IMG/VR virus record: IMGVR_UViG_3300009183_000028
Coordinates: 1 to 36,423 of that record
From: a virus
DNA: 36,423 nt
Direction: 5' to 3' (one strand)
Shown: piece after piece, positions 3,798-12,809 of the stretch
How the letters are laid out: each line of letters begins with the position of its first letter
Position numbering within the stretch: position 1 is the stretch's first letter
Made by a program: the position numbers and the translations under genes
The notes under the pieces: model-generated
Told to the model about the DNA's origin: nothing
What the model saw: the letters and a program-made list of their open reading frames with translations, nothing else
Database searches by the model: none

Positions 3798-5706
3798 ATT
3801 TGCCGTATACCGACATGATCGCCACCTCTGCGTCAAGGGGCAAGCCCTTGGCCCACTCGGGCGGCGTACACATCACCTCTTTCAATCGCACGGCCATTTC
3901 TTCTGGCCGGTCGGTCTCTAGCACCACCTCGTCATGGACGTGGAGCACCACGTCATCAAGCTGGCGCAGCGTATGGCGCAGCAAGTCATTGGCGGTGGCT
4001 TGGGTGATATTCTCACACGCTAGACCCTTCCAAAGCCTTGCACGCGGCCATTCTTTTGCGTCTGCTGCTGGTTTCCAAGCGGCCTTGGCGTAGGTCACAC
4101 CATCGGCGTCCAGCTTGGCAAACGGGTAGCACAGCACCCGCGCGGAGGGCAGAGCGTACCAGAGATGTTGGCCGTCGAACATATAGGTGACCCGGCCCGC
4201 GCTGAACTCAAAACCTTTGTTTCTCATTGCTCGGGTGTAGGCTTCTTCTAAAGCCGACCAATAAGGTACAGACCAAGGATTAGCACGACGCCAGCCATCA
4301 ACCATTCGCTTGGCCTCAAACTCGGTGAGCTGCACGCCATAGGCGCGGCCCATGGCTGCGAAAGCACCCACGCCACCGGCAAAGCCGCAGGCGAGCTCTT
4401 GCACCTTGCCGATCTGGCGCTGATCCTTGGTGACATCGGCCACGGCCACGCCGAAGGTGGCAGCAGCGTTGACCTTGTACACGTCCTCGCCCTTGGCAAA
4501 GATGGCCAGCTTATCGTCCCCACGGCCTGAGAGCCACGGGTTGGCGCGGGCCTCTATCGCCGCCCAGTCAGCCACGACCAAATGCTTACCCGGCGCAGGC
4601 ACAAGCGCGGGTCTGAGCATTCCTTTGAGGACGTCGGTGACCCGCTTGCCATATCTTGGGACGATGGCGTGCCCTCTGACCATAGCGTTGCGTACGGCTG
4701 CGGGTTCTTCAGCGGTTTTACGGGTGAAATTGTGAACTTGGGCGCCGTAGCTAGAAGCACGGCCTGTAGCCGAGCCTCCAGCAAAGACAAACGCGCCTCG
4801 TACTCTCTGATCTTCCACATCGGCAAGCTGCGCGAGTCTGCTGAATTTCGCGACTGACGACGCCCATAGGTCGTCGGCGCACTGGATGACTTCTTGAACA
4901 TGGGGTGGGACATCCTCACAGTTTAATAAATTGGCCCTGACAGTCTTGTCAATGCTGTACTTCATCTCGCCGTCTTTGTAGGTTTCCATGAGCTTGAGGG
5001 CTTGCGGCCCCACACGCTCGATGACCCACTGGCGCATTTTGGGGGAGCGCACGCTAGTGATCGCGCCCTCGGTGACCTCGGCCACGATCTGCTCGATTTC
5101 GACCAACTCATCGCTGGCGTACTTGATAGCCGCTTTGCACAAGGGCACATCGACCAAGACGCCCCGGTCGTTGATGCGTTCGTTGATGTGGTAGTCGAGC
5201 AGTTCGTCCTCTGACAGCGGCCGCAGCGCCTTGCTGATCGAGCGCATGGCCCGCACGTCTTGTTCGCAGTAGGCGATCATCTCGGCCATCAGGGCCGGGT
5301 CGTCGCGGAATGGCGGGATGCATAGCAGGCGAATCAACTGCGAGCCGCGATGGTCTTTCTTCATGGACGCGCCGGCAAAGCGCCCCACGTCTTCAAGCGA
5401 ACCCGGCGCACAGTTGGCGCGGGCCTGGGTGGCGGTGCAGTAGAACTGCTCCAGATCAAAGTTGATCTGCAACACGTACCAGAAAATTAGGCGCTCAAAC
5501 GCGGCGTTGTGGGCGTAGATTACGCCTTTGTAATCTTTGATTTGTTCGGGGAAGGGCTGCGTGGGCACCCACGTCTGAACGTCCTCATCATCAAAAGCCC
5601 ACGACATGCACAGCACGTCGGTCGATGGGTCTTGAGCGTAGTTGTAAACGCCTGCGACTTTTAGGTCGCAGGCGCTACGGGTTTCAAAGTCAACCCAAAG
5701 AGTCAT
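3796..5706 (-). CDS. Family A DNA polymerase with 3'-5' exonuclease domain
   Basis: The replicative polymerase, 636 aa. The N-terminus is a DnaQ-like exonuclease: Exo I WVDFET (D6, E8), Exo II around NAAFERLIFW and Exo III YCEQDVRAM. The C-terminal half has family A motif A (VVADWAAIEARANPWLSG), motif B (RQIGKVQELACGFAGGVGAF) and motif C (LHVHDEVVLE). There is no 5'-3' exonuclease domain. This form belongs to the widespread phage module DUF2800-DUF2815-PolA-VirE. Its start overlaps the DUF2815 stop by one base (TGATG), implying coupled translation. Confidence 0.95.
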   Translation of the reverse strand: MTLWVDFETRSACDLKVAGVYNYAQDPSTDVLCMSWAFDDEDVQTWVPTQPFPEQIKDYKGVIYAHNAAFERLIFWYVLQINFDLEQFYCTATQARANCAPGSLEDVGRFAGASMKKDHRGSQLIRLLCIPPFRDDPALMAEMIAYCEQDVRAMRSISKALRPLSEDELLDYHINERINDRGVLVDVPLCKAAIKYASDELVEIEQIVAEVTEGAITSVRSPKMRQWVIERVGPQALKLMETYKDGEMKYSIDKTVRANLLNCEDVPPHVQEVIQCADDLWASSVAKFSRLAQLADVEDQRVRGAFVFAGGSATGRASSYGAQVHNFTRKTAEEPAAVRNAMVRGHAIVPRYGKRVTDVLKGMLRPALVPAPGKHLVVADWAAIEARANPWLSGRGDDKLAIFAKGEDVYKVNAAATFGVAVADVTKDQRQIGKVQELACGFAGGVGAFAAMGRAYGVQLTEFEAKRMVDGWRRANPWSVPYWSALEEAYTRAMRNKGFEFSAGRVTYMFDGQHLWYALPSARVLCYPFAKLDADGVTYAKAAWKPAADAKEWPRARLWKGLACENITQATANDLLRHTLRQLDDVVLHVHDEVVLETDRPEEMAVRLKEVMCTPPEWAKGLPLDAEVAIMSVYGK

Positions 5707-6335
5707 CAGGCAGACCGACGACGACGGCCAGCGGGGGCAGTCGCTTCAACGGCAACTTCGGGCTCACCGTCCATACTGACCCATTCGACAACCTCAAACA
5801 CCGGGGTGAAGATTTTGCCGTAGCTCTTGTGGGCGTAGTGATCCTTTTTGAGGCGCACAATCGCCACTGGCTTGGCTTGGTCCTTTTCGACCTGTTCAGC
5901 CAATAGCACAGCCAAGGTCTGCACAGCGCGTTTGCCGCCCACTGACGTGGTGGTGTACCGCGCTTCCATGCCCTTGTCGTCGCCGCTGACACACTTGAGG
6001 CTCATGCCCACTTGTGTCTCCCAACCTTTTTTAGCGCCGGGGGGCGCTTCATCAAGCTCGGGCAACGGTTGAGACACCGACGCCATCTTCTCGGCCAGCA
6101 CTTCACCATCGCCCCATGCGATGAAGCCGTGGACAAAGCTGAAAGGATTGATGGCCCAGGTGGAGTCGTCTTCCACTTCGGTCTGATCGGCACCGAAGAC
6201 CCAGTGGCCAGTCTTGTCCATTTTCAGGATGACTGTGCCGGCTGGGCCCACGTCTGCTTGGATCGCGCGCAAAGCGGTTGAGAGGGTGGAGACTGCGGGC
6301 AAGCCCGCCTGAGAGAACGCTACTAAATTGGACAT
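5706..6335 (-). CDS. DUF2815-like protein, probable single-stranded DNA-binding protein
   Basis: This 209-aa protein begins with an extended N-terminus followed by a beta-rich core (strands near WETQVGMSLKCV, ARYTTTSVGGKRAVQTLAVLLAEQV, VAIVRLKKDHYAHKSYGKIFTPVFEVVEWV). That suits an OB-fold ssDNA-binding protein. Position between a DUF2800-like nuclease and PolA is the standard location of DUF2815 in phage replication modules. The tail ends in basic residues (AGRRRRSA), unlike the acidic tails of bacterial SSB. The ssDNA-binding role is inferred from context and family. Confidence 0.75.
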   Translation of the reverse strand: MSNLVAFSQAGLPAVSTLSTALRAIQADVGPAGTVILKMDKTGHWVFGADQTEVEDDSTWAINPFSFVHGFIAWGDGEVLAEKMASVSQPLPELDEAPPGAKKGWETQVGMSLKCVSGDDKGMEARYTTTSVGGKRAVQTLAVLLAEQVEKDQAKPVAIVRLKKDHYAHKSYGKIFTPVFEVVEWVSMDGEPEVAVEATAPAGRRRRSA

Positions 6336-6344
6336 TTCTGTTCC

Positions 6345-7472
6345 TTATTGAAGTTTAGAAAGGGCAGCAGTCAACTGCTTCCCGATTTGAACCACCGCCG
6401 GCCTGGGATCACTCTCAGACGCGATGGTGGTACCCGAAGAGACGGCGACGACCAGATCATCGGGCAGGGCTTGCTTGCGCTTTTTGAGCGCCTTCTCAGC
6501 CTTGGCCGGTGAAATGATAGAAGTCTCCATCACCTCAGATTCTGTGAGACCAAACGCAAACAGGGCGACTTTGGCCTTGTCTTCATCAGTCCACTGTCTG
6601 ATGGCACGCTTGGCCACCAACTTGTAATCAGGCAGTTTAGCACCGCTGTCCAGCATCTGAAGGGCCAACGCGCGCAGATCCGAAATCCACTGCTCCAGCA
6701 TGTCGGCGTTCTTCAGATACGCGCTGATCTGGGGCGCGTCCAGGCTCTCAATAGACGTCTTCAAAGCCCGGTCAACAGCGCCGGTCATCTGTGGGCAGAT
6801 GGGCTTGGCTGCGCACCAGCGGCAGTGGTCGCCGATCTTGAGTTCAGCGTCGGGCTGCTGCGCCAGCTTGACGGCCTGCACCAACTGCAACTCAAACTCA
6901 GCAATGCGCTTTGGCGTGGTCACCCAGCGCTTGACTTGGGGCGGCTGCACGATCACGCACTCGATCTCATCGACGCCATCAAACGCCCACTTGGCGGCCT
7001 CAGTGCGCATGGATGCAGCGGCGTAGAACATCAACTGCGGATTTTCCACCACGTCAACCATAACACCGTCACCGAATTTCCAGTCAAGTACAACAGCGCG
7101 ATTGCCCACCCGGCCAATAAGGTCAGTACTGCCAAATACGCCGGGAAGTAGATCACCAAAGCCAACACGTGTTTCAGCTTCAATTTCCATCTCCTTGGTC
7201 GGGTCGATCTCATCGAGCGCGGCCATTGCAACTTTCAGCTTGTTGTCAATCAGCTCTTGCGTCAGCACTTGGTCTTGGTACTTGGTGCCCAAGTAATGCT
7301 CGGGCGGGTTGTCGCTCATCACGATGTCGGCGATGACGTTGTGCAACAGCGTGCCCTCATCGGCGTATTTGTTGCTGGGCTGGGGCGGCATCTTTTGCAC
7401 CAAGGCCACTGAGCCTGGGCAGTTGATGACGCGCTTGGCGGTCGAGCCGCCGACGATGTTACTGTGTTTCAT
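6345..7472 (-). CDS. DUF2800-like PD-(D/E)XK nuclease with Fe-S cysteine cluster
   Basis: This 375-aa protein resembles RecB/Cas4-type nucleases. It has H44 in a helix (TLLHNVIAD), D117 in GVFGSTDLIG, D130-x-K132 in VVLDWKFG, and QLMFYAAA at 146-153, the order expected for the nuclease core. C18 (INCPGS) plus C217, C220 and C226 (CRWCAAKPIC) match the split cysteine set that holds a 4Fe-4S cluster in AddB/Cas4-like enzymes. It may process replication or recombination intermediates. The start overlaps the upstream 104-aa gene in an ATGA arrangement. Confidence 0.85.
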   Translation of the reverse strand: MKHSNIVGGSTAKRVINCPGSVALVQKMPPQPSNKYADEGTLLHNVIADIVMSDNPPEHYLGTKYQDQVLTQELIDNKLKVAMAALDEIDPTKEMEIEAETRVGFGDLLPGVFGSTDLIGRVGNRAVVLDWKFGDGVMVDVVENPQLMFYAAASMRTEAAKWAFDGVDEIECVIVQPPQVKRWVTTPKRIAEFELQLVQAVKLAQQPDAELKIGDHCRWCAAKPICPQMTGAVDRALKTSIESLDAPQISAYLKNADMLEQWISDLRALALQMLDSGAKLPDYKLVAKRAIRQWTDEDKAKVALFAFGLTESEVMETSIISPAKAEKALKKRKQALPDDLVVAVSSGTTIASESDPRPAVVQIGKQLTAALSKLQ

Positions 7473-7783
7473 ACTTTACCCCCCGCTCTTTTAGCAACTC
7501 TTTCCATTGCATCGCCGTAACTCATGCCCAATGCTTTTTCAATCAGCGCCAATGAATCGTCAATAATCTTGTCAAAAGTACCAGGCTCTACTTCTTTGAT
7601 GACATTCAATGTCATCTTAGCGTCTTCCAATGCTTCAACGTCAGCGCTGTTGGCGCTATACAGCAGATCAATGTCTGCTTGAATAGGGGGCTTGGGCGGC
7701 TGTATCCGGTCAAACATTTGTTTTCCAAGGCTGTAAAAATCTTTGTTTTTACCAGTGCTGTTGTCTTTAGTTTTGCGTTGCAT
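7469..7783 (-). CDS. Hypothetical 104-aa protein of the replication operon
   Basis: Soluble, mostly helical product with a basic N-terminus (MQRKTKDNSTGKNKD) and Pro-rich linker (IQPPKPPIQADIDLL), then an acidic helical region. It overlaps the nuclease gene by 4 nt and the 53-aa gene by 17 nt, so it is clearly part of the operon. No family recognised. Gene order suggests an accessory replication or recombination factor. Confidence 0.7.
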   Translation of the reverse strand: MQRKTKDNSTGKNKDFYSLGKQMFDRIQPPKPPIQADIDLLYSANSADVEALEDAKMTLNVIKEVEPGTFDKIIDDSLALIEKALGMSYGDAMERVAKRAGGKV

Positions 7784-7928
7784 CTTGTGTTTCCTCTTTA
7801 GTGAATTTGATTTCGCCGTTGTAGCTGTAGGTTCTGATCTCTACTGTGTTGAAGGCGTCTGGGAATTTGGCTTGCGCCCATTCCAACAGAATTTGCTCTG
7901 CTTCTTTGGTGGTGATTTTCAGTTCCAT
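7767..7928 (-). CDS. Hypothetical 53-aa protein, first gene of the replication operon
   Basis: Starts MELKITTKEAEQILLEWAQAKF, with an amphipathic helix followed by beta-like residues (TVEIRTYSYNGEIKFTKEE). A very good ribosome site, AAGGAG, lies 7 nt before the ATG. It is the promoter-proximal gene of the leftward operon. The compact strand-helix-strand look could fit a small regulator, but no family is recognised. Confidence 0.65.
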   Translation of the reverse strand: MELKITTKEAEQILLEWAQAKFPDAFNTVEIRTYSYNGEIKFTKEETQDATQN

Positions 7929-7997
7929 GTGGACTCTCCTTTAGTTGATGAGCCTTGACTATAGCATAAAAAATAAAAGTGTGCTAAACTTTTTGAC
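7929..7997. promoter_or_regulatory. Divergent promoter region between the two replication operons
   Basis: AT-rich 69-bp gap between divergent genes. Minus strand: TTAGCA (7982-7987), 18-nt spacer, TATAGT (7958-7963), a moderate sigma70 promoter for the leftward genes. Plus strand: an extended -10, TG-C-TAAACT (7982-7990), would place the transcript start at about 7996-7998, the ATG of the VRR-NUC gene. The two candidates overlap, so the operons may compete. All assignments are by eye. Confidence 0.45.
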
Positions 7998-8300
7998 ATG
8001 CTTGAAAAAGAAATCGAAAAATACTTCTGTTGGACTGTGGAGCGCATGGGTGGCAAGACGTGGAAGTTCACGTCACCGGGGCGCAAAGGCGTGGCTGACA
8101 GGATCGCTTGTTTGCCTGATGGCACTACATGGTTTGTGGAGTTGAAGACCAAGGGTGGCAGGCTGAGTGAGTTGCAGAAAATTTTTATGTCGGATATGGC
8201 GTTGCTGAATCAGCGCTATGCGTGTTTATGGACTAAGGAGCAGGTGAACGAATGGATTACAAAACAAAACGAATTGACAAACAAACAGCCAAAGCAGTAA
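7998..8300 (+). CDS. VRR-NUC domain nuclease, 100 aa
   Basis: A stand-alone VRR-NUC, the PD-(D/E)XK nuclease family found in phage replication modules next to SNF2 helicases. Visible motifs are GVADRI (D34), the E-x-K pair in FVELKTKGG (E48, K50) and Q60 in SELQ, the normal catalytic layout. The family acts as a structure-specific, Holliday-junction-type nuclease. No ribosome site precedes the ATG (aaactttttgac), so the mRNA may be leaderless. It overlaps the Mom-like gene by 49 nt. Confidence 0.9.
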   Translation: MLEKEIEKYFCWTVERMGGKTWKFTSPGRKGVADRIACLPDGTTWFVELKTKGGRLSELQKIFMSDMALLNQRYACLWTKEQVNEWITKQNELTNKQPKQ

Positions 8301-8908
8301 TAGAAGCAATGCATTACAGAAAAACACTTGGTGTATTTTGGGAAGCGTTTGGCTTGTACGAAGACGACAAATTGATGGGCGTTGTTTGCTACGGTCAGCC
8401 TTCTGCGCCTATACAAAAACACGCGTTTGCAAATCGTGATTTTAGATTGTATGAACTTACGCGTTTGGTCATAGATGGCGGCAACAAAAATTGCGCGTCT
8501 ATGCTCATAGCCGACTCGCTAAAGTTGTTGAATGAACAACCGTCTGCTGTGATCAGTTACGCAGACAGCGCGTTAGGGCATGTCGGCATTGTTTACCAAG
8601 CGTCTAATTGGTTGTACACGGGCGCAACAACATCGCACGATAAGTTATACATGGTCGATGGAAAGGCGTTGCACCCTATGACGTTGCGCGATCAGTTTGG
8701 CGTTACCAATCCGACGGTGTGGGCCAAAGAAAACAACATCATTACGGTCAAGCCATCGCCTAAACACCGTTATTTTTATTTCAACGGCAACAAACGCCAA
8801 CGCAAGCACATGCTTTCTAAACTGGCGTATCCCTTGGTAAACGAATACCCCAAAGCGCCTAAGACGTATTACACAGTTGTAGGGAAGTGTAATGACGCTA
8901 TCGCTTAG
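8252..8908 (+). CDS. Mom-like DNA adenine modification enzyme (GNAT-like)
   Basis: This 218-aa protein resembles phage Mu Mom, which converts adenine to N6-carbamoylmethyl-adenine and protects phage DNA from restriction. Shared landmarks in order: H21-Y22 (MHYRKTLGVF), a strand ending in CYGQP (46-50), YELTRLVI with R71, ASMLIADSLKLL (82-93), SYAD with D105, and GHVGIVYQASNWLYTG with Y115 (109-124). These parallel the HY, Arg, Asp and Tyr residues considered important in Mom. Start at 8252 has AAGGAG 11 nt upstream. It lies between VRR-NUC and an SNF2 helicase, with a 17-nt overlap into the helicase gene. The family is fairly secure; the chemistry in this phage is inferred. Confidence 0.8.
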   Translation: MDYKTKRIDKQTAKAVIEAMHYRKTLGVFWEAFGLYEDDKLMGVVCYGQPSAPIQKHAFANRDFRLYELTRLVIDGGNKNCASMLIADSLKLLNEQPSAVISYADSALGHVGIVYQASNWLYTGATTSHDKLYMVDGKALHPMTLRDQFGVTNPTVWAKENNIITVKPSPKHRYFYFNGNKRQRKHMLSKLAYPLVNEYPKAPKTYYTVVGKCNDAIA

Positions 8909-10247
8909 ACCCTACCAAGAAGAAGCCGCTGACTTCTTGTTTGAGCACGACCGCGCCATGGTGCTGGCCCCGGTGGGTGCTGGCAAGACAGCGATCACGC
9001 TGACGGCCATGGACGCCATGATCAAAGACGGCCACGTCAAGCGCTGGTTGGTGGTTGCGCCCAAGCGCGTCTGTACCGACGTGTGGCCCATCGAAGCCGC
9101 CAAGTGGAGCAAGCACTTGAAGCTGGCCATTGCGGTGGGCACACCCAAGCAGCGCAACGATGCGTTCAACAGCGATGCCAACGTCATCGTCATCAACTAC
9201 GACAACTTGCAGTGGTTGGCCGATGTGTGTGGTGTAACAGGCGATAACTTGCTTGTAGACGGATTGGTGTTTGATGAGCTCACCAAACTGAAGAACCCAT
9301 CAGGCGCACGCTTCAAAGCGTTTGACAAGATCATCAAAGACGTGCGCATTCGCTGGGGCTTGACCGGGTCGTTTACCAGCAACGGCTTGGAGGACGTGTT
9401 CGGCCAGTGCAAGATCATTGACCTGAGTCTGCTGGGCCGCTCCAAAGGCGCGTTCATGCAGCAGTACTTCGTGCTGATCAACAAGGAGTTTGGCGAGTGG
9501 GCGCCACGGGTTGGCTCGCTGGCCAAGGTCATGGACAAGATCAAGCCGGCGACGTTTGTATTGGAGCCAGGCGAATACAAGGACAAGCTGCCCCCGCTCA
9601 ATGTGGTCGAGGTGCGCTGCGACCTGAGCGACCGCAAGCCGTATGAAAAGATGAAGGCCGACTTCGTGGTGGAGTTCCCCGACGCCAAGGCCATTGCGGC
9701 CAACGGGGGTGTCGTGACCGGCAAGCTGCAACAAATGGCCAGCGGGTTTGTGTACGACACGCGAAAGCAAGCCTCCGAAACACCCGGTAGATTCATTGTC
9801 ACACAGACGCCGGTGTGGTTTAGCCCACACAAATTTGACCGCTTGGAGGAATTGCTTGATGAGAACCAGCACGCAAATACCATCATTGTTTACCAGTACC
9901 AAGAAGAGCTCGCCGAGCTCAAGCGCCGCTTCAACCCCACGACTCTTGATGACGACCGAGCCATCGAGCGATGGAATGCTGGACAAGTCAGGCTACTGGC
10001 CGTCCATCCAAAATCAGCCGGTCACGGGCTCAACCTACAGAACGGCGGGTGTCACATGGTGTTTCTGTCATTGCCGTGGAGTCTGGAGTTATACGAACAA
10101 ACAATTGGTCGTTTGCACCGCTCGGGGCAAGCGCACGCTGTGTGGTGCTACGTGATGCTGACCAACAAAACGGTTGACGAGAAAATTTTTGTCGCCTTGC
10201 ATGACAAGCGGGCGGTGTCGGATATTGCCATGGAAGAACTGAAATGA
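8892..10247 (+). CDS. SNF2/DEAD-type superfamily 2 helicase
   Basis: This 451-aa protein has the SF2 motifs: Q-like region RPYQEEA (6-12), Walker A APVGAGKTA (26-34), motif Ia VVAPKRV, Walker B VFDELTK (D128-E129), motif III GLTGSFTSN (about 156-164) and, near the C-terminus, AGHGLNLQNG and QTIGRLHRSGQ (motifs V and VI). This is the compact HepA/SNF2-like helicase that accompanies VRR-NUC and PolA in many phages. It probably remodels forks or recombination intermediates. Its stop overlaps the next start (ATGA). Confidence 0.95.
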   Translation: MTLSLRPYQEEAADFLFEHDRAMVLAPVGAGKTAITLTAMDAMIKDGHVKRWLVVAPKRVCTDVWPIEAAKWSKHLKLAIAVGTPKQRNDAFNSDANVIVINYDNLQWLADVCGVTGDNLLVDGLVFDELTKLKNPSGARFKAFDKIIKDVRIRWGLTGSFTSNGLEDVFGQCKIIDLSLLGRSKGAFMQQYFVLINKEFGEWAPRVGSLAKVMDKIKPATFVLEPGEYKDKLPPLNVVEVRCDLSDRKPYEKMKADFVVEFPDAKAIAANGGVVTGKLQQMASGFVYDTRKQASETPGRFIVTQTPVWFSPHKFDRLEELLDENQHANTIIVYQYQEELAELKRRFNPTTLDDDRAIERWNAGQVRLLAVHPKSAGHGLNLQNGGCHMVFLSLPWSLELYEQTIGRLHRSGQAHAVWCYVMLTNKTVDEKIFVALHDKRAVSDIAMEELK

Positions 10248-10414
10248 AACGACTAGAAGCCTTAAGGAAAGCGCAACTCAAAGCGGCGCGATCCATACTG
10301 AAAATTCACCGCAAGGACTTTAACGCTGCCGAGCGGACGTTACAGCACACACTTGACTTGATAGCTAAACTGGAGGAAAAAATTGGAAATCACTTGGCGA
10401 AAACTGAACGCTGA
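10244..10414 (+). CDS. Hypothetical 56-aa coiled-coil protein
   Basis: A basic, highly helical product (MKRLEALRKAQLKAARSILK), probably a coiled coil along its full length. It starts within the helicase stop (ATGA) and overlaps the next gene by 32 nt. Function unknown; it is the first of eight small genes that follow the helicase. Confidence 0.6.
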   Translation: MKRLEALRKAQLKAARSILKIHRKDFNAAERTLQHTLDLIAKLEEKIGNHLAKTER

Positions 10415-10574
10415 ACTCAAGACTTTGGATGAAGCCAAGGTGCTTGAGATGCTGCTGGCCGAACGACGGTCAGCCAAACGAGTGTCTGTGCTGGAGCGAC
10501 TGCACCAGCGTTACACGGCCTTGCGGGCATCCCGCGAGCGGATTGAAATCTTACAGGAGGCAAGACGACCATGA
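10383..10574 (+). CDS. Hypothetical 63-aa helical protein (TTG start)
   Basis: The reading frame opens with TTG at 10383, supported by GGAGG six nt upstream and by lack of a suitable ATG. The product (starts MEITWRKLNAEL) is rich in Leu, Glu and Arg and should form an antiparallel helical hairpin. It overlaps both neighbours. No family recognised. Confidence 0.65.
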   Translation: MEITWRKLNAELKTLDEAKVLEMLLAERRSAKRVSVLERLHQRYTALRASRERIEILQEARRP

Positions 10575-10765
10575 GCGATTGGACACCACCCCCCGGCACC
10601 AAGGTCACCCGACCATGGATAAATGTAGACCACCCACGTTACAAGTGGACGACAGGCGCTGACGTGCAGGCGACTTGGCGCAAGCAAGGCTGGGTAGCAC
10701 CCAGCGCGAGCCTGCCCCCGCCCCCGCCTGAGAAGGTGATTGAGCCCTTGCGCCGGGTGAGGTAA
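10571..10765 (+). CDS. Hypothetical 64-aa Pro-rich protein
   Basis: Starts MSDWTPPPGTKVTRPWINV and has a Pro run (LPPPPPEKV) before a basic C-terminus. An ideal ribosome site (AGGAGG, about 10 nt upstream) and a 4-nt overlap with the previous stop support it. No family recognised. Confidence 0.65.
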   Translation: MSDWTPPPGTKVTRPWINVDHPRYKWTTGADVQATWRKQGWVAPSASLPPPPPEKVIEPLRRVR

Positions 10766-10768
10766 GCC

Positions 10769-10927
10769 ATGCCCAGACCAAAAAGTGAAATAACCGACGT
10801 GACCAAGACCGTCAGCGCCCGGTTGATCCCGGCCCATTACGTCGAGTGGAAGCGCTTGGGCGGCATCAAGTGGCTGCGCCAGCAGCTCTCGCAAAGCCTT
10901 AAGGAGCAACGCGATGCCCGCATTTGA
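10769..10927 (+). CDS. Hypothetical 52-aa basic protein, possible ribbon-helix-helix
   Basis: The product (starts MPRPKSEITD) has a short strand segment TVSARLIPAHYVEWKRL followed by a helix GGIKWLRQQLSQSLKEQ. This order resembles a short ribbon-helix-helix DNA-binding protein, as in Arc/CopG-type regulators. The fold call is visual only. It overlaps the next gene by 14 nt. Confidence 0.55.
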   Translation: MPRPKSEITDVTKTVSARLIPAHYVEWKRLGGIKWLRQQLSQSLKEQRDARI

Positions 10928-11063
10928 CACATGGAGCCAAGAGAACCTGGCCAAGTTTGCTGCTGAAGCCTACGCCAAGATGCAAGAGCAAGACGACCGC
11001 ATCCAGCACTTGCAAAACGATTTGAAAGATGCCATCAACGCATACCGGGAGTTACTGAAATGA
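10914..11063 (+). CDS. Hypothetical 49-aa coiled-coil protein
   Basis: Starts MPAFDTWSQENLAKFA and continues as one predicted amphipathic helix with heptad-like spacing (MQEQDDRIQHLQNDLKDAINAY). Preceded by AAGGAG (in taaggagcaacgcgatg), which fixes the start at 10914. It ends in a stop overlapping the next ATG. Function unknown. Confidence 0.6.
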   Translation: MPAFDTWSQENLAKFAAEAYAKMQEQDDRIQHLQNDLKDAINAYRELLK

Positions 11064-11215
11064 AAGACCCACAGGACTGCACTTACCCACAAGAGGCGCT
11101 GTGTTTGCACGAATGCAAACAGGCTTGCCAGAAGCGCTCTGGCTGGCGCAAGAAACAAATTGACGATGCCGAAGAAGAGGCGTGGAAAGAACTGGAGAAG
11201 AAAAATGGACAGTGA
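11060..11215 (+). CDS. Hypothetical 51-aa Cys-rich protein
   Basis: Four cysteines (CTYPQEALCLHECKQACQK, residues 7-23) in the N-terminal half could bind one zinc ion or form disulfides. The C-terminus is a charged helix. ATGA overlap with the preceding gene supports translation. No family recognised. Confidence 0.6.
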   Translation: MKDPQDCTYPQEALCLHECKQACQKRSGWRKKQIDDAEEEAWKELEKKNGQ

Positions 11216-11411
11216 TCAGAAATTTATTGGTGGCATGGTTACGTTGCTGTTGATGGTGCTAATCGTGTGCGCAACCCTGACGGGTTACAACAAGCTCGAC
11301 AAGTGGGACAGGGCCGTCACCAACGGCGCTGATCCTATGGTGACCACTTGCGCCTTGTACCAAGACACCAACTTGGCCATTTGCACAATCTTGGCACAGG
11401 GGCGCAAATGA
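11205..11411 (+). CDS. Small single-pass membrane protein, 68 aa
   Basis: One strong transmembrane helix (about residues 10-27, GMVTLLLMVLIVCATLTG) with a short charged N-terminus and a soluble domain holding two cysteines. ATG at 11205 is preferred over an in-frame TTG at 11160 because GGAG lies about 8 nt upstream of it. Membrane protein of unknown role in the middle operon. Confidence 0.6.
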   Translation: MDSDQKFIGGMVTLLLMVLIVCATLTGYNKLDKWDRAVTNGADPMVTTCALYQDTNLAICTILAQGRK

Positions 11412-11755
11412 CACACGAAAAATTATTTAAGCTGGCGCTTGAGGCGCTGGAGGCACACGCAGATATTGGCATCAAGTCAGATAAAGCCATCACCGCACTT
11501 AAAGAACGATTGGCACAGCCAGAGCAAGAGCAACAAATTGAAACTCTAAAACGCTGTTTGTTTCAGATGCAAGAGGCGGCAAAAGATTTGGTTGAACAAG
11601 CAAAATCTTTGCCCCCACCACAGCGCACATGGGTAGGGCTGATGCGTGGCGTTCGTGTTGAAGGCGACGCTGTAGTCATAAGAGTCCATGGCGGTAACGA
11701 TGAAGCACGAGCGTTGTGCGGCGAACTTATCAACGAGATGGAGAAGAACACATGA
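11408..11755 (+). CDS. Hypothetical 115-aa protein
   Basis: Starts MTHEKLFKLALEALEAHADI, overlapping the previous stop (ATGA). The first two thirds are helical with a central coiled coil (EQEQQIETLKRCLFQMQEAAKDLVEQ). The C-terminal part (RGVRVEGDAVVIRVHGGNDEARALCGELI) looks like a small beta-alpha unit. An in-frame start further upstream, inside the membrane-protein gene, is less likely. Function unknown. Confidence 0.65.
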   Translation: MTHEKLFKLALEALEAHADIGIKSDKAITALKERLAQPEQEQQIETLKRCLFQMQEAAKDLVEQAKSLPPPQRTWVGLMRGVRVEGDAVVIRVHGGNDEARALCGELINEMEKNT

Positions 11756-11847
11756 TCGGGCTATTCCTAATCCTGTGTCTGGGCGCGGCCATCACGATCA
11801 TGGCTGGGTGGCTATTCGTTCAGATTCTGCTATGGACTGAGGAATAG
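11752..11847 (+). CDS. Tiny membrane peptide, 31 aa
   Basis: A 31-residue peptide made mostly of one transmembrane helix (MIGLFLILCLGAAITIMAGW). It starts inside the previous stop (ATGA) and runs 18 nt into the convergent endolysin gene. As the last gene of the plus-strand operon it could be a second holin-like peptide, but this is a guess. Confidence 0.45.
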   Translation: MIGLFLILCLGAAITIMAGWLFVQILLWTEE

Positions 11848-12309
11848 CGCCCGTTCATCTTGCCGGCGTTTGACAAGACCCGGCAAGACTTTGCCCCCTG
11901 CCATACAGTATTTTAAGAATTCCTCACCAGCGCCCGCTTTATCGCCGCGAAGCAGCTTTTGACGAAGCGTTGAACGCTGGAGTGTTCCCAAACCGACGTT
12001 GAAACTAAAACTAACAAGGCCGTCAAACATGCCTTGTGAAAGAACGACAGGGCAAAAAGAAAGCACGCCGCGTTCAAAGCGCTGCAAGTCGAATTTAAGG
12101 ATTGCATCTACTTCATCCTTTGAAAAAGCCCGGTTGTCTTGCGGGCGCAAGGCGAACCCATCACGCTGGTCTATGGGTAGCTTGCCCTGTTCGGGGTACA
12201 AAACGTGGCCCACGCCGACAGTCCAAAGCCGCGCTGGGCATCGGTACGGTTTGTACCTGATGCCTTCGTGGTGGCAAATGACCTTGATGGCCTGTTGACT
12301 GACGTTCAT
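11830..12309 (-). CDS. Endolysin, GH24 lysozyme (muramidase)
   Basis: A 159-aa T4/P22-type lysozyme that cleaves the MurNAc-GlcNAc bond of peptidoglycan. The catalytic region reads HHEGIRYKPYRCPARLWTVG and then VGH. E15 is the acid and T30 corresponds to the T4 Thr26 position. Position 24, the T4 Asp20 equivalent, is Cys, a replacement already known in the E-8aa-D/C-5aa-T triad of phage lysozymes. No signal peptide or SAR segment is seen, so it should need the holin. It overlaps the upstream holin-like gene by 4 nt. Confidence 0.93.
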   Translation of the reverse strand: MNVSQQAIKVICHHEGIRYKPYRCPARLWTVGVGHVLYPEQGKLPIDQRDGFALRPQDNRAFSKDEVDAILKFDLQRFERGVLSFCPVVLSQGMFDGLVSFSFNVGLGTLQRSTLRQKLLRGDKAGAGEEFLKYCMAGGKVLPGLVKRRQDERALFLSP

Positions 12310-12809
12310 TTTTTAAATGCTTGGCCACCAAACCAAAACGATACGATGCACGACCAGATGATCTGGGTTTCATCGTCCCAAAGCTGGTCCAGCGCCACGA
12401 CAAAATCCACGCCCGTGTGCCATGCGTAGTAGAAGCCAAACACCTCAACAAACATGAACATTAGGAACATGCCGTAAGTGATGACGCTACGGGTAGCCGC
12501 TCTCATGTTGATGACCCAAGTGCTGGCCCCTTGACCCAAGGCTATGTCGTGCGCATAGAGCGCCTGGCGCTCCTGCATGGCCGTCTGGGCGTTGGTCACA
12601 TCTGCGTTGATCTGAATCTGCTCGGTCTGGATGTGTTCTATGCGCTCTTGCGCTTCTAGGCCAGCCTTTTTGAGGGTCAGTTCCCGCTCGGTTTGCATGG
12701 CGGCAAGGGCAAGCTCATGCTTCTTGTCGGCGTGGTCTTGGAAAAGCTCAAGGATTTTTGGGAGTCCCCCCATCAGGAAACTGATGAGGCTCGAGAACAG
12801 GGTTAGCAT
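12306..12809 (-). CDS. Holin-like membrane protein with coiled-coil, 168 aa
   Basis: The product starts MLTLFSSLISFLMGGLPKIL (amphipathic or membrane-associated N-terminus). A long helical stretch follows (about residues 20-95), then a hydrophobic segment (ITYGMFLMFMFVEVFGFYYA) and a second at the C-terminus (IIWSCIVSFWFGG). Three membrane-associated segments next to an endolysin suggest a holin of the GTA/3-TM type. I chose ATG 12809 over a start 35 codons earlier because GGAAG precedes it. The holin role is inferred from position. Confidence 0.65.
   Translation of the reverse strand: MLTLFSSLISFLMGGLPKILELFQDHADKKHELALAAMQTERELTLKKAGLEAQERIEHIQTEQIQINADVTNAQTAMQERQALYAHDIALGQGASTWVINMRAATRSVITYGMFLMFMFVEVFGFYYAWHTGVDFVVALDQLWDDETQIIWSCIVSFWFGGQAFKK

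Follow-up and report, generated by a model that had tools for sequence, protein, structure and literature searches.

In the 36,423-base stretch of viral DNA that was analysed here as a whole (hereafter called the window), a gene of the Mom family lies between a VRR-NUC-like nuclease gene and an SNF2-family helicase-like gene, at a junction that in related phages is either empty or filled with changing cargo. By its sequence, the enzyme belongs to an already known family and the novelty lies in its genomic address: the comparison of related phages suggests an exchange slot for DNA-modification genes at the VRR-NUC/SNF2 junction, of which no description was found in the literature searched (which is not proof of absence). 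We consider it probable that this Mom protein is an anti-restriction, DNA-modifying enzyme that is carried as an exchangeable cassette in the VRR-NUC/SNF2 slot.

According to this model, a small and apparently promoterless cassette would have entered the operon where the VRR-NUC-like and SNF2 genes overlap, and there it would borrow the ribosome-binding-like site of SNF2 and supply new bases for the SNF2 start region, so that the operon, with which Mom would be expressed, stays translatable. Mom, by means of its predicted GNAT fold, would add an acetamido (carbamoylmethyl) or related group to the N6 of adenine in the double-stranded phage DNA, and the modified adenines would stop cutting by those host restriction enzymes whose sites contain adenine. 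The freshwater lineage to which the window belongs would swap modification genes of unrelated chemistry, presumably selected by shifting restriction in its hosts.

Results

An intact Mom-family gene in a replication module

The Mom reading frame (Table 1) starts with ATG and has no internal stops. It matches the Mom profile PF25680 at 130.7 bits (E 7.2e-38; model positions 2-201 of 202 aligned), far above the cut-off of 27.1 bits, PHROG 1384 ('Mom-like DNA modification protein') at 160 bits (E 1.2e-46) and the sequence of Mu Mom in PDB entry 8bv8 at E 6.5e-11. These matches confirm the Mom-like identity proposed in the initial annotation. The motifs on which that proposal was based are present as described there, namely H21-Y22, ELTRLVI (68-74), SYAD (102-105) and GIVYQASN (112-119). 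Mom-like genes are common, with matches at E 1e-3 in 276 of 50,697 phage records, every one of which is less than 60% identical.

Table 1. Positions of the Mom gene, its borders and related features in the window.
Feature	Positions	Strand	Basis or remark
Second slot, nucleotidyltransferase/PolA junction	5706..5706		empty in the window
VRR-NUC-like nuclease gene, left border of the slot	7998..8300	+	phrog_93 endonuclease, E 1.9e-25
AAGGAG, ribosome-binding-like site	8235..8240	+	reading of the sequence, 11 nt before the Mom ATG; putative function
Left breakpoint	8238..8251		identity drops from 9-10/10 to 4-7/10 versus four empty-slot loci
Mom-family DNA modification gene, slot cargo	8252..8908	+	218 aa; PF25680, phrog_1384, predicted fold
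SNF2-family helicase-like ATPase gene, right border of the slot	8892..10247	+	PF00176, phrog_62
Right breakpoint zone	8892..8931		first bases of SNF2 best match other Mom-bearing phages

A structure model made from 47 sequences (mean pLDDT 89.4, pTM 0.82) has Mu Mom as its best PDB match (8bv8_A, Z 19.0, rmsd 3.9 over 174 residues, 24% identity), with a GNAT enzyme as runner-up at Z 12.2, and Foldseek gave an E-value of ~9e-12 for 8bv8 and of 4e-5 for the next match. The predicted fold is thus of the Mom/GNAT type that had been anticipated. Conservation was read from two alignments. The first, alignment A2, joins the window protein with 46 relatives that were hand-picked from 3 + 80 loci, thinning near-copies and short matches (L009 repeats L002, and L081 was removed for a stop codon); the second has eight rows and includes Mu Mom. 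All 47 rows of A2 share H21, Y22, E68, R71, N80, S102 and Y115, and at position 105 there is a D in 43 rows and an E in four, while H21, Y22, R71, S83, D105 and Y115 are invariant in all eight rows of the other alignment, so that the residues singled out beforehand (H21, Y22, R71, D105 and Y115) are conserved, with the D-to-E variation mentioned. H21, R71, D105 and Y115 align to H48, R101, D139 and Y149 of Mu Mom (231-residue numbering), which we take to be its essential residues. A serine absent from that earlier list, S83, is invariant in both alignments and aligns with S124 of Mu Mom (241-residue numbering), the very residue named in the title of 8bv8, 'inactive mutant S124A'.

Among the four Mom copies that occupy this slot dN/dS is 0.03-0.06 (dN 0.048 and dS 1.45 between the window and L002), indicating that the protein is strongly constrained. 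The G+C content of the gene is 45.1%, compared to 56.3% for SNF2 and 54.9% for the window, and at third positions 50.5% versus 73.8%.

The gene shares 49 nt with the end of the VRR-NUC-like gene and 17 nt with the start of SNF2, and the overlaps reported in the initial annotation are therefore real. PF08774 (VRR_NUC) matches the left neighbour at E 0.0013 and 19.2 bits, under its cut-off of 23.8; the right neighbour matches PF00176 at E 9.4e-13 (48.3 bits) and phrog_62 at E 8.6e-127. Primase-like, PolA, nucleotidyltransferase-like and exonuclease genes are located nearby on the opposite strand, and because of this gene content the label 'replication module' is a fair one. In L002, an HNH/homing-endonuclease-like ORF is situated immediately 3' of SNF2 (L002:3993-4469, +).

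Besides PolA, primase-like and exonuclease proteins, the window encodes a portal, a terminase and an endolysin. Relatives of its SNF2 protein at 66-69% sit on contigs of two metagenome-assembled genomes, one assigned to Betaproteobacteria and one to Rhodoferax, which hints at a freshwater betaproteobacterium as host. The portal is 42% identical to that of Rhodoferax phage P26218; its closest match, at 80% identity, is the portal of DSL-LC05, an uncultivated phage from Dishui Lake for which, in the accessible part of the source, a new family was proposed and, contrary to the betaproteobacterial hint, a host among the Enterobacterales was predicted (PMC10611076).

The VRR-NUC/SNF2 junction is empty or variably filled

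Relatives of the slot were collected with four queries, namely three SNF2 sequences (window, L002 and L240) and the PolA of the window; the resulting loci are similarity-search matches, the best 80 per scan, and not a random sample. Both flanks were present in 288 of the 327 loci (39 were without one or both), and removal of 72 exact duplicates left 216 distinct junctions, 113 of which are empty and 103 filled among the matches listed. Insert lengths split into two clear groups, and in many relatives VRR-NUC and SNF2 overlap directly with no gene in between.

Among the matches listed, predicted DNA-modification genes were present in 49 of the 103 filled slots and in 49 of the 59 slots of at least 450 nt. 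With family names assigned from representatives, the cargo comprises Mom in four slots (the window, L002, L003 and L004, among the matches listed), cytosine-5 methyltransferase-like genes in 27 (11 of type A, 10 of type B and 6 of type C), a PHROG 757 methyltransferase in 16 and a DpdA-like transglycosylase with a queuosine-precursor-type transporter in two. The other 54 of the 103 filled slots, again among the matches listed, are without a recognised modification gene and hold small or unknown ORFs only (44), DUF3310-like (7), DUF6378 (MazG-like; 2) or HNH (1) genes. Recurring small ORFs of 55-158 aa fill slots such as those of L095, L105 and L113, and the small slot ORFs are candidate anti-defence proteins.

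In L190 and L297 the slot carries a phrog_887 queuine/DpdA-like transglycosylase (the two copies share 82% identity), followed by a Vut_1/queuosine-precursor-type transporter, together a putative 7-deazaguanine DNA modification cassette. The name 'DpdA-like' rests on phrog_887 and the adjoining transporter, as searches with the protein gave no Pfam or NCBIfam matches and no convincing PDB sequence match; moreover, phages with DpdA alone are not always modified, according to the available portion of PMC6884629. The PHROG 757 protein likewise had no Pfam or NCBIfam matches, and its low-confidence model (pLDDT 66.4), with chains of DNMT1 as best matches (E 1e-4), is in line with a cytosine-5-like fold and with nothing further.

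Outside the slots of these loci (1.97 Mb), slot-derived queries found cytosine-5 type A in one, type C in three, Mom in three, HNH in seven and DUF3310-like in three flank pieces, and those for cytosine-5 type B, PHROG 757 and DpdA gave no matches, a comparison that is biased because its queries came from slots. A check of whole records is less biased, though not unbiased, since the choice of PF00145 and PHROG 757 followed their detection in slots. For this check, 50 records with a length of 32 kb or more were hand-picked by length and searched whole (at least one further record, L410 with 32,048 bases, also qualifies and was left out). PF00145 was found in seven of the 50, six times in the VRR-NUC/SNF2 slot (G020, G022, G024, G027, G035 and G047) and in G005 (locus L103) in the second slot described below. 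PHROG 757 matched eight records, two of them weakly through the cytosine-5 methyltransferases of G027 and G035, which were set aside; in five of the remaining six it resides in the VRR-NUC/SNF2 slot and in G034 about 7 kb away. Mom was matched in two of the 50, once above the cut-off and then in the second slot, and neither match lies in the VRR-NUC/SNF2 slot. PF01555, a family not met in slots, was found in none of the 50. In all, 11 of the 14 strong matches are located in the VRR-NUC/SNF2 slot (P ~7e-17, assuming that this slot makes up 2% of the genome) and two more in the second slot. In G019 (locus L214), a sub-cut-off Mom fragment of 24 bits lies at 5532-5777 (-), just upstream of VRR-NUC; it is possibly a Mom remnant, and the slot of that record carries a small ORF.

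Slot content turns over rapidly and the Mom cassette has moved between lineages

Slot class differs in 53 of the 121 pairs with at least 97% identical SNF2. On the SNF2 tree (FastTree; 191 of the 216 proteins, those of at least 380 aa, with the first 8 residues left out; good support on 48 of the 183 branches), no fewer than 72 changes are required to explain the eight slot states, where the possible minimum is 7 and the shuffled mean is 86.3, none of 200 shuffles being as low, which means that slot content is somewhat clustered yet often replaced. Mom presence alone needs four changes. The nearest SNF2 relatives of the window have empty or small-ORF slots; those of L002 have slots that are empty or hold PHROG 757 or other cargo.

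Between the window and L002, nucleotide identity is 63.0% in VRR-NUC, 82.3% in Mom and 72.5% in SNF2, and among the phages with a slot Mom the proteins are 90-93% identical for Mom compared to 60-63% for VRR-NUC and 68-70% for SNF2. Conversely, L091, whose slot is empty, matches the window at 93.3% in VRR-NUC and 95.1% in SNF2. The four slot Moms form a single clade with a support of 100/100. Because Mom is more alike than its flanks, and because the near-identical flanks of L091 enclose nothing, the Mom cassette has, on these sequence comparisons, been passed between phage lineages; the identities, the SNF2 tree and the Mom clade all give Mom a history different from that of its flanks.

The borders of the cassette are given in Table 1. 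Identity to the empty-slot lineage resumes from about 8932, and the four Mom cassettes enter SNF2 via nearly identical bases, whereas two empty-slot phages have a different start region. The AAGGAG motif lies within the shared left flank. As matching bases precede SNF2 in two empty-slot phages, the Mom cassette seems to take over a ribosome-binding-like site that in its empty-slot relatives precedes SNF2.

Search for com-like control and for an own promoter

No com-like zinc-finger ORF precedes Mom among the seven window ORFs (30-130 aa) that fit a loose pattern, and a hidden com was rejected, as six of these are antisense to or within larger ORFs and the seventh is 3' of SNF2; the earlier remark that no com-like activator is evident therefore holds for the window. 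This seventh, a 77-aa Cys-rich ORF (10429-10662, +), is by eye not com-like and may be a shadow frame. A start-site hairpin of the Mu type was not seen at the Mom start, where RNA folds gave z-scores of -0.35 and +1.59, a weak test since the corresponding region of Mu itself scores only -0.33. As to a promoter of the cassette's own, promoter-like sites in 7400-12500 are no commoner than chance (2 versus 3.3 expected, an uninformative result); one is directly upstream of VRR-NUC, and the interval from VRR-NUC to Mom has none.

A second slot at the nucleotidyltransferase/PolA junction

The VRR-NUC/SNF2 junction is not the sole variable site. Inserts of at least 100 nt were counted in 113 of 241 VRR-NUC/SNF2, 1 of 210 exonuclease/nucleotidyltransferase, 76 of 185 nucleotidyltransferase/PolA and 10 of 73 PolA/primase junctions, counts that retain some copies; four junctions of structural genes gave no rows, since the loci do not extend that far. 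Since inserts are frequent at the nucleotidyltransferase/PolA junction, we regard it as a second slot. An oriented recount gave 158 distinct junctions of this kind instead of 185, and 27 instead of 31 inserts of at least 450 nt. These 27 comprise Mom (3), cytosine-5 type C (3) and type A (1), PHROG 757 (1), Dam (1), HNH-like (6) and PAPS-reductase-like (11) cargo and one unassigned ORF. PAPS-reductase-like genes, e.g. that of L118, are the commonest large cargo here (11 of 27), with PF01507 found in the one that was scanned.

The second-slot Moms, beside PolA in L093 (=L169), L136 and L197, form a clade separate from the Moms of the first slot, which makes two or more independent arrivals of Mom in this phage group probable. 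A modification gene is present in the second slot of nine loci, and none of the seven whose first slot could be classified carries one there as well, an outcome expected by chance about 1 in 6 times given 49 carriers among 216 overall. A broader reading, to which we give an even chance, is that the two junctions act as an exchange port within the replication region, usually with one modification gene per genome and with the chemistry switched by one recombination, and that they share a pool of cassettes with Mom, several cytosine-5 methyltransferase types, PHROG 757, Dam and the DpdA-like protein plus transporter.

Discussion

Alternative readings of the Mom gene

The initial annotation took the location of Mom among replication genes to imply modification at replication time. 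That Mom is made early, together with SNF2 and VRR-NUC, and modifies the DNA during copying is a possibility that we hold only tentatively: it would fit the overlapping same-strand genes amid replication genes, the ribosome-binding-like site and the start RNA fold that is not unusually stable, but the slot already explains the position. Because the junction is often empty in relatives and also accepts unrelated cargo, the neighbourhood of Mom points to an insertion slot and not to a dedicated replication-coupled function, and the position does not support the implication.

It is unlikely that the Mom fold serves here to transfer a different acyl group or acts on another nucleic-acid target, such as another base or tRNA. 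To our knowledge the Mom family is wide and has hardly been tested beyond Mu, and identity to Mu Mom is only 24% over the structural alignment. Against this stand the conservation of the residues presumed essential in Mu, together with S124, and the fact that much of the replacement cargo of the slot is also predicted to modify DNA.

Less probable still is a weapon resembling a restriction-modification system, in which Mom would mark self DNA and VRR-NUC and SNF2 would attack unmarked DNA of host or competitor. The overlap of the three genes could be read in this way, as could the many other modification genes among the slot cargo, and a jumbo-phage Mom fused to a restriction-endonuclease-fold domain has been proposed as such a pair in the part of PMC7824862 available to us. 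VRR-NUC and SNF2 occur, however, without cargo, and the nuclease thus without a modification gene, at 113 of the 216 distinct junctions (this concerns the junction, and the genome may hold one elsewhere), and 54 further junctions are filled without a recognised modification gene. Moreover, among 50 Mom-bearing records SNF2 was found in just 6 and VRR-NUC in 7 (5 and 5 over the cut-offs), so Mom seldom accompanies them, although these figures are lower bounds because the records are 50 of the 80 loci of one search and many are short fragments. In view of the empty slots, and of Moms elsewhere that are mostly without these genes, we rejected Mom as an obligate partner of VRR-NUC and SNF2, and an obligate restriction partnership is unlikely.

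Finally, that Mom is a random passenger without a selected function in the phage is highly improbable, since its G+C content below that of its neighbours and the mere four slot copies among the matches listed are outweighed by strong purifying selection (dN/dS 0.03-0.06), conserved residues and the presence of one Mom clade across diverged SNF2 backgrounds.

What the exchangeable cassette would offer

Most descriptions of DNA modification in phages deal with a single phage. A slot at a constant place that is either empty or holds an adenine-modifying Mom, a cytosine methyltransferase or an enzyme predicted to exchange guanine amounts to a natural experiment in close relatives, and its comparison would let restriction pressure, the cost of modification and the rate of exchange be measured. 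The 44 slots with small or unknown ORFs are moreover a simple place to seek new modification or anti-defence genes.

Comparison with known systems

The window protein resembles Mu Mom (8bv8; PF25680; PHROG 1384) in its predicted fold, its similar length and its set of conserved residues, and in Mu too the preceding gene overlaps the start of mom. It differs in sequence (29% identity), in the window being without a com gene that could be found, and in its location, which is a slot between nuclease-like and SNF2 genes and not the right end of the genome as in Mu. The Mom-like proteins of Listeria, Vibrio, Proteus, Mycobacterium, ICP1 and other phages belong to the same family, all with less than 60% identity, and the Mom contexts in Polaribacter phage P12002L, Acinetobacter phage JeffCo and Bacillus phage Riggi show no gene annotated as VRR-NUC or SNF2 (4 kb per side where available). 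The word Mom does not occur in the searched text of PMC5512222 and PMC8670742.

The cargo of L190 and L297 in the same slot resembles DpdA-type 7-deazaguanine modification, which, as far as the accessible text of PMC6884629 goes, proceeds by guanine exchange, a chemistry different from that expected for the window Mom and performed by an unrelated protein. As in the Mom-nuclease fusions of jumbo phages, Mom adjoins a nuclease in the window; those fusions are, in the part of PMC7824862 at hand, one polypeptide, whereas the window has separate genes. In almost all of the relatives that were examined, this nuclease gene has no Mom with it.

Phage genomes contain variable cargo sites with fixed flanks, changing cargo and empty versions, and the VRR-NUC/SNF2 slot conforms to this general pattern. 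It stands apart from such sites in that nearly half of the filled sites hold predicted modification genes, with at least three chemistries, and in that two sites appear to draw on the same pool.
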